Part shown: positions 50,070 to 51,660 of the stretch, one piece after another
Layout: each line of letters begins with the position of its first letter
Numbering within the stretch: position 1 is the first letter of the stretch
NCBI GenBank assembly: GCA_947305065.1
Contig: CAMZCT010000004.1
Coordinates: forward strand, 1 to 64,000
DNA from: an uncultured Mycoplasmatota bacterium
GTDB lineage: Bacteria; Bacillota_I; Bacilli_A; RF39; UBA660
Direction: 5' to 3'
Length of the DNA stretch: 64,000 bases
Made by a program: the position numbers and the translations under genes
Notes under the pieces: model-generated
Told to the model about the DNA's origin: nothing
The model's database searches: none
Seen by the model: the letters and a program-made list of their open reading frames with translations, nothing else

Positions 50070-50211
50070 GTGTAAATAATTGTAGTTCATAAACCGCTAT
50101 TTTTTAGGATGTTTTGAATAAATGTTTTTTAAATTTAGTAATTTCGCTTTTATTATTATTTTTATTGTGGTATTTTTCTTTTAAGGTAGAAGAGAAAAGG
50201 AGAGTTTTTTA

Positions 50212-51639
50212 ATGAAAATTATTATGCTTGGTAATGATACCAAAGAAGAAATTGAGAAAAGGTTGCGTATAGTGGCAACGGCCGGGAATCTATCCCGTGC
50301 TGATGGGACGGTAACGCAAGTTTATGAAACTAATAATGATTATGAAAATAATCTAAGATTAGCTAGAGCTATAGTTGGGTATGGACATAAATCTATATCA
50401 GAACATGATTATTTGGTTTTTGCTTTAGAAGATGTTACTCCTATTGTAGAACAAACAATTATTGGATATAGATTAACGTCATTTACCATAAAATCTAGGA
50501 GAAATGTCGATTTTAGAAATGTCGGATTTTATACTCCTGATTTTAAAGATAACGATGGTAATATTGTTGAAAAAAATGCATATTTGCAAAATATTTATAA
50601 AAACTATATGAATAGTTTGTTTAAAAAATATGGTGAGTTGGTTGATGAGGGATTACCAGTAGAAGATTGCCGATATATATTACCTTATTCATATCACAGT
50701 AATATTATTATGGGTTGTGATGCCAACGAACTTTTAAATATGACAAGCGATATGTTATATGGTAAGATATCTAACATTTCTGAGATACATGAACTTGGTG
50801 AAAAGTTAGCAGAAATGATAATTACTAAAGCTCCATATTTGTCTAGAGCTTTGGATAAAGAAGCTAAAAAAGATTATTACGAAGATAAGTTGTCATTTTT
50901 AGATAAAGAAGTTCAAATAGATAATAATGATTACCAATTATTGAATGAAGTTAAAATGATTGACTATACAAATAATGCTGACTGGAAAGTGTTAGTTTTA
51001 GCTATGATGGCAAGATATCAATATAGTTATGAAAAAGCAGAAGAAACATTACGTGAATTATGTAAACAGGATCCAGAAACGGAAAGAAATATAATGCAAG
51101 CTATTATTCACAAAAAGAATCAAAGGGAATTAGAGCAAGTTATTTATTCATTTCAAATGCCTATATCACTCGCTGTTTTAACACATATTACAAGACACAG
51201 AATGCATTCTTTACTAGTTCCAGACTTTGTTCCAATGTGGAATTTAGATAACTTTATTACTCCAGAAAGTATTAAAACAAACCACAAAAATGAGTTTAAT
51301 GATATATTTGCTAATAACAAAACTGTTAAAGATATGTTTAAAAGTTTTGGAATTAGAGATGAAGATTTGGTTTATTTCTATCTATCTGGTAATGCCTGCA
51401 ATATTACAACGACTATGAATGCTAGAACTTTGGAATGGATTAGTAGAATGAGATGTTGTAATAAAGCCCAATGGGAAATAAGAGAATTAGCAAACCAAAT
51501 GGTTGATTATGCTAAGGGTGTATCTCCTCTAATAGGCGAAGGTCTTGGACCAAATTGTAAAGTAAATGGTTTTTGCCCTGAAGGAAAAGATAGCTGCAAA
51601 GAAAGAGGAGTTGTAGTTTTCAAAAAAGAAATGAAATAG
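50212..51639 (+). CDS. thyX: Double-length ThyX-like flavin-dependent thymidylate synthase
   Basis: A 475-aa protein, twice the usual ThyX length. ThyX methylates dUMP to dTMP using FAD and methylene-tetrahydrofolate. The N-terminal half has GYRLTSFTIKSRRNVDF (87-97), the R-x2-S-x4-S-x-R nucleotide motif, then ILPYSYHSN. The C-terminal half has ITRHRMHSLLVPDF (328-333), where the second Ser and Arg are lost, but keeps NARTLEWISRMR and AQWEIRELA (403-425), the dUMP-binding end of ThyX. The two halves look like fused subunits with complementary active-site parts. A Cys cluster ends it (NCKVNGFCPEGKDSCKE). AAAAGGAGAG ribosome site. Confidence 0.83.
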   Translation: MKIIMLGNDTKEEIEKRLRIVATAGNLSRADGTVTQVYETNNDYENNLRLARAIVGYGHKSISEHDYLVFALEDVTPIVEQTIIGYRLTSFTIKSRRNVDFRNVGFYTPDFKDNDGNIVEKNAYLQNIYKNYMNSLFKKYGELVDEGLPVEDCRYILPYSYHSNIIMGCDANELLNMTSDMLYGKISNISEIHELGEKLAEMIITKAPYLSRALDKEAKKDYYEDKLSFLDKEVQIDNNDYQLLNEVKMIDYTNNADWKVLVLAMMARYQYSYEKAEETLRELCKQDPETERNIMQAIIHKKNQRELEQVIYSFQMPISLAVLTHITRHRMHSLLVPDFVPMWNLDNFITPESIKTNHKNEFNDIFANNKTVKDMFKSFGIRDEDLVYFYLSGNACNITTTMNARTLEWISRMRCCNKAQWEIRELANQMVDYAKGVSPLIGEGLGPNCKVNGFCPEGKDSCKERGVVVFKKEMK

Positions 51640-51660
51640 AAGCAAGTGCTTCTTTTTTCT
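51638..51660 (+). terminator. Terminator after thyX
   Basis: AGAAGC-AAGT-GCTTCT then T-run, overlapping the stop codon. Confidence 0.75.

Follow-up and report, generated by a model that had tools for sequence, protein, structure and literature searches.

A tandem ThyX whose two domains retain complementary parts of the active site

ThyX, a thymidylate synthase and proposed antibiotic target, is a symmetric tetramer in which three chains contribute to each active site. It is an open question why shared sites of this kind are so common among enzymes. What becomes of such a site when two ThyX domains are joined in one polypeptide and each has lost a different part of the catalytic apparatus? The question is raised by a gene in a window of 64,000 nucleotides (positions 1 to 64,000 of contig CAMZCT010000004.1, assembly GCA_947305065.1) from an uncultured Mycoplasmatota bacterium; among named records, Candidatus Coprovivens excrementavium comes nearest to it. 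The host assembly is MAG-like (1.67 Mb in 42 contigs, 96.5% complete, 5.6% contamination).

The gene and its product

The gene is a single intact frame of 475 codons, with the following features:

50212..51639, + strand: tandem ThyX gene, 475 aa (ORF, two Thy1 domains, thyX equivalog, AF2 model, PDB fold matches)
50195..50202, + strand: Shine-Dalgarno-like AAAAGGAG, 9 nt 5' of the ATG (direct sequence reading)
50263..50835, + strand: N-terminal Thy1 domain, retaining the part of the site that comprises the nucleotide loop and H53 (genome-wide Pfam match, residue table)
50956..51528, + strand: C-terminal Thy1 domain, retaining the part of the site that comprises FAD and R174 (genome-wide Pfam match, residue table)
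51547..51600, + strand: Cys-rich tail GPNCKVNGFCPEGKDSCK
51638..51659, + strand: hairpin resembling a terminator, with a T-run, at the stop codon (consensus scan)

The hairpin points to this gene as the last of its transcript. Both halves of the protein score above the Pfam cut-off for Thy1 (PF02511) and are thus members of this family, which bears out the tandem ThyX reported in a preliminary description of the locus, and the protein reaches 119.8 bits against the thyX model TIGR02170 (cut-off 87.9). Its AF2 model, like all our structure predictions that of a monomer, has a pLDDT of 85.3 and a pTM of 0.83; every top match in the PDB is a ThyX (TMt about 0.67-0.81), and the fold is accordingly that of ThyX. 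The Cys-rich C-terminus, previously regarded as unusual, is not peculiar to the tandem gene: the pattern GPxC...CPEGK..C is found at the end of many ordinary single-domain ThyX.

Division of the active site between the two halves

Homologues were aligned, with residues numbered by T. maritima ThyX, and tandem proteins like that of the window, of which 41 distinct ones were compared, are here called type A. In a comparison set of 14 single-domain ThyX, the residues H53, Q75, R78, H79, R80, S88, R90, E144, R147, R174 and E182 vary little or not at all. In the window protein, H53, S88, R90, E144 and R147 are present in the N-half, from which R78, H79 and R174 have been lost; the C-half has R78, H79, R174, Q180 and E182, but H53, S88, R90 and R147 are gone from it. 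The positions concerned are the following:

50386..50388, + strand: His59 (T. maritima H53), in GHKSISEH; N-half 41/41, C-half D/N/E/Q/T/R
50494..50505, + strand: Ser95, Arg96, Arg97 and Asn98 (S88, G89, R90 and Y91); S88 and R90 in the N-half 41/41
50662..50673, + strand: Glu151 to Arg154 (E144 and R147); N-half 41/41, C-half D39 and Y40
51193..51201, + strand: Arg328-His329-Arg330 (R78, H79 and R80); C-half 41/41, R78 and H79 in the N-half 0/41
51418..51426, + strand: Asn403-Ala-Arg405 (N163 and R165); N163 is N25 D15 S1 in the C-half, mostly Asp in the N-half
51451..51477, + strand: Arg414 to Glu422, RCCNKAQWE (R174, Q180 and E182); C-half residue counts in the text

The nucleotide motif R-x2-S-x4-S-x-R, said earlier to be kept in the N-half, can be read there directly as GYR-LT-S-FTIK-S-R-R. 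The C-half, as also claimed, lacks S-x-R after TRHR-MHS (TRHR-MHSLLVPDF) and then retains NAR...RMRCCNKAQWEIR; at the position of the GH..EH motif it has KNQRELEQ. Across type A, H53, S88, R90, E144 and R147 occur in all 41 N-halves, and R78, H79 and R174 in none of them. Conversely, all 41 C-halves carry R78, H79 and R174 and none carries R90 or R147; S88 is gone from nearly all of them, with Ser at the aligned column in two of the 41. Q180 and E182 follow R174 (41/41), being present in 40/41 and 34/41 C-halves, against 0, 1 and 0 N-halves for R174, Q180 and E182, respectively. R80 is retained in both halves. H53, E144 and R147 thus obey the same split, which the preliminary description had not included. 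Because the pattern holds across 41 distinct tandem homologues, it is not due to chance.

The protein resembles ThyX (PF02511, TIGR02170; T. maritima TM0449) in its fold, in its replacement of ThyA and in having nearly all catalytic positions somewhere in the chain: H53, R78, H79, R80, S88, R90, R147 and R174 are all found across the two halves, Y91 being Asn and Q75 being His. It differs in having two domains per chain and in dividing between them the RHR...S-x-R stretch that is contiguous in ThyX; no tandem has RHR-x7-S-x-R within one domain, RHR being confined to the C-half and S-x-R to the N-half in every case. Both halves are under purifying selection (dN 0.14-0.28 versus dS about 0.9-2.2 where estimable).

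A probable composite site for thymidylate synthesis

Solved ThyX structures divide these residues between chains. In PBCV-1 ThyX, one monomer binds the ligand through S88 and Q89 and another through Q75 and R182 (T. maritima R174) (PMC3498832). In T. maritima ThyX, a third monomer supplies H53, and R78 lies opposite the flavin N1 (PMC11940539); the proposed roles are leaving-group assistance for S88 and Y91 and dUMP activation for R174 (PMC8316439). The structures agree with the earlier statement that the half-sites of normal ThyX come from different chains, and because they divide the residues in the same way as the tandem proteins do, the set kept by each half probably represents the contribution of a different chain.

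We consider it highly likely that the tandem protein is an obligately asymmetric ThyX, in which two chains would re-form the tetramer, with two of its four sites functional. Two tandem chains would pair into a four-domain ThyX assembly, a pseudo-tetramer with two predicted sites per four domains, whereas the ThyX homotetramer has four identical ones. Each working site would be centred on a C-half, where R78, H79, R174 and AQWE would hold FAD and polarise dUMP, with N-halves supplying both the dUMP-binding and catalytic loop (S88, R90 and R147) and the folate-side histidine H53. Sites centred on N-halves would be dead because both partner sets are missing, so that each assembly would have two sites, one for each tandem chain. 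Geometrically, the sites of a 222 assembly of two tandem chains would be complete only if centred on C-halves; with the C-halves related by the axis that is unused within a site, both partner roles would fall to N-halves, which matches the presence of H53 in the N-half. The split, its persistence in several divergent lineages, the ThyX fold, purifying selection on both halves and mutual exclusion with ThyA are shown by the data; how the chains assemble, how many sites they form, that they catalyse the reaction and which chain exactly supplies H53 we infer. The AF2 models of type A and of a second type, B, described below, match solved ThyX. A pseudo-dimer of complementary halves, as first proposed for this gene, is supported by the sequences themselves, by the persistence of the split over extreme divergence and by the gene's tracking of ThyA absence.

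Two substitutions count against this reading and would need compensation, namely Q75 to His and Y91 to Asn, the latter position being mostly Glu or Asn in type A N-halves (E26 N12 Y2 M1). Mutation of Y91 in T. maritima lowers the rate of flavin oxidation about 1000-fold (PMC11940539).

The host genome and its relatives bear on the reaction. A whole-genome search found no ThyA in the host, nor did searches of the same genome find DHFR of the common family or thymidine kinase (Tdk, PF00265). Among 386 genomes of the host's family, strong matches (E below 1e-40 for type A and below 1e-20 for type B) were found to type A in 44 and to type B in 80, with ThyA in 183 and single ThyX in 10. Types A and B never occur together (0 genomes versus 9.1 expected), and a tandem ThyX occurs with ThyA in 6 genomes versus 58.8 expected; these statistics take no account of shared ancestry, so that the nominal probabilities are underestimates, yet the exclusion is a strong pattern even so. 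As the tandem ThyX and ThyA are nearly mutually exclusive and the host is without ThyA, the tandem protein stands in for ThyA in this genome and is very probably the enzyme that makes thymidylate in the host. The reaction that we infer is methylation of dUMP dependent on FAD and folate. Of the ThyX-bearing genomes sampled, 124 of 134 carry the tandem class, apparently the predominant ThyX in this gut family. In two of the six genomes with both a tandem ThyX and ThyA, a stop codon lies inside the tandem gene, as if the gene were decaying after its replacement.

The supply of the folate substrate is less straightforward. Formate-THF ligase is present in the host; no recognised SHMT was found in its genome by a search that was positive in 14 of 14 control genomes, and the only match to FolD was a weak one to an ornithine-cyclodeaminase-like ORF. 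These absences, which bear on the source of methylene-THF, count against thymidylate synthesis by the tandem protein. Together with the alterations of Y91 and Q75 in type A, they would fit a ThyX-fold enzyme that uses the same composite site for a different reaction, acting on another nucleotide acceptor or hydroxymethylating instead of methylating. There is a precedent in close single-domain paralogues that methylate UMP: one of them, PolB, a UMP/dUMP methylase, performs the same chemistry with another preferred substrate (PMC7226160), although it differs from the tandem protein in having one domain. We nevertheless regard such a change of reaction as unlikely, since the exclusion with ThyA, the exclusion between tandem types and a host without ThyA and Tdk all point to dTMP supply.

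Two further explanations were weighed. Enzyme duplications often leave one half as a pseudo-enzyme, and one of the Thy1 domains could in principle be a dead scaffold or regulatory domain, the other making ordinary homotypic sites by itself; this is quite improbable, given that neither half has a complete site, each being without residues invariant in single ThyX, and that in all sequences the set lost by one half is the set kept by the other. That the frame is an artefact of assembly or annotation, joining two neighbouring genes, or a gene in decay, might be suspected from a MAG with 5.6% contamination, yet 41 distinct sequences, drawn from many different MAGs, share the full-length frame, related architectures occur in plasmids and phages, and purifying selection is evident, so that we give this explanation almost no weight.

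If the tandem protein is indeed an asymmetric ThyX, it offers a ready-made natural experiment, a fusion with complementary loss that would tell which residue works from which chain. It would permit mutation site by site, which the homotetramer forbids, and would illustrate how a symmetric oligomer becomes locked into asymmetry.

Breadth, precedents and origin of the tandem proteins

The split recurs across many bacteria, plasmids and phages. Other genomes of the host's family encode a second, very divergent tandem type (B/C) of 400-450 aa, in which H53, S88, R90 and R147 lie in the N-half and R78, H79 and R174 in the C-half of all 45 proteins and Y91 is retained in 43 of them. The AF2 model of type B (pLDDT 85.1, pTM 0.85) has solved ThyX as its best fold matches, with modest TM-scores. 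Type B/C is commoner in the family than the window's type; Pfam recognises mainly its N-half and mostly misses the C-half.

RefSeq tandems from plasmids and jumbo phages show the same split over two domains (WP_009276148 of Parabacteroides, WP_274338778 of Paenibacillus, and proteins of Euzebya, Miltoncostaea and Bacillus licheniformis); the plasmid genes of Parabacteroides, Euzebya, Miltoncostaea, Paenibacillus and Bacillus are annotated simply as 'FAD-dependent thymidylate synthase'. Tandem genes also occur in Tunturiibacter, Vibrio and Microcystis phages, and all plasmid and phage tandems have S88, R90, Y91 and R147 in the N-half and R78, H79 and R174 in the C-half; the residue table covers five such lineages beyond types A and B/C, the plasmids including actinobacterial ones. 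The plasmid lineages differ from the window's type in length (516-565 aa), in keeping Y91 and in sharing about 20-25% identity between lineages. The Parabacteroides/Euzebya group, with Miltoncostaea, differs further in having Asp at the N-half H53 position (GDDSV), and its C-halves carry a conserved RRH[KR]PGR near the equivalent place; the two features together may mean that the halves of these proteins pair differently within the tetramer.

A domain duplication in ThyX has been noticed before: Chloroflexi other than Dehalococcoides were reported to have only ThyX, with an uncharacterised duplication of its domain (Valas and Bourne 2009, PMC3224940). As described, these proteins are like the tandem ThyX in having two Thy1 domains in one chain and in being the only thymidylate synthase; the likeness is one of description, the residues of the Chloroflexi proteins not being treated in that paper. 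Our searches, which covered the openly accessible literature, found this remark on the duplication and no description of a complementary split. The split, its conservation and its breadth therefore appear to be new.

The preliminary description had proposed a phylogeny of each half. In a tree built from 77 sequences, comprising halves and singles, one branch sets off all the N-halves (support 91/96.9) and another all the C-halves (96/89), with the singles between them. This topology suits one old duplication, an origin that we prefer without regarding it as established; separate origins of each tandem type are less favoured because the N-halves group together, as do the C-halves, in the careful tree. 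The grouping of the N-halves persists when the active-site stretches are removed (support 81), but the C-halves then no longer form one group, and a separate duplication of type A is not rejected (p-AU 0.166). We give an even chance to a single ancient duplication and fusion that created an asymmetric ThyX class with half the sites of the tetramer, which would have reached bacteria of several phyla, as well as plasmids and jumbo phages, through inheritance and transfer. In that case the N-halves would all be orthologues of one another, as would the C-halves, and the enzyme would not revert, each half alone being dead.

A viral origin of type A was considered and set aside: scans of viral contigs gave no full-length close relative, and the neighbours of the gene in one carrier, MT835736, look bacterial. 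In this unverified gut 'Bacteriophage sp.' scaffold (MT835736.1, 13509-19785), the tandem ThyX adjoins a thymidylate-kinase-like gene. The jumbo-phage and cyanophage tandems include those of Vibrio phage vB_VmeM-Yong MS32, annotated as a hypothetical protein, and Microcystis phage MaMV-CH01. Finally, a single ThyX-like protein of 260 aa from another family of the class has RHQ, is missing the usual S-x-R and EH motifs, and may be a paralogue with another function.
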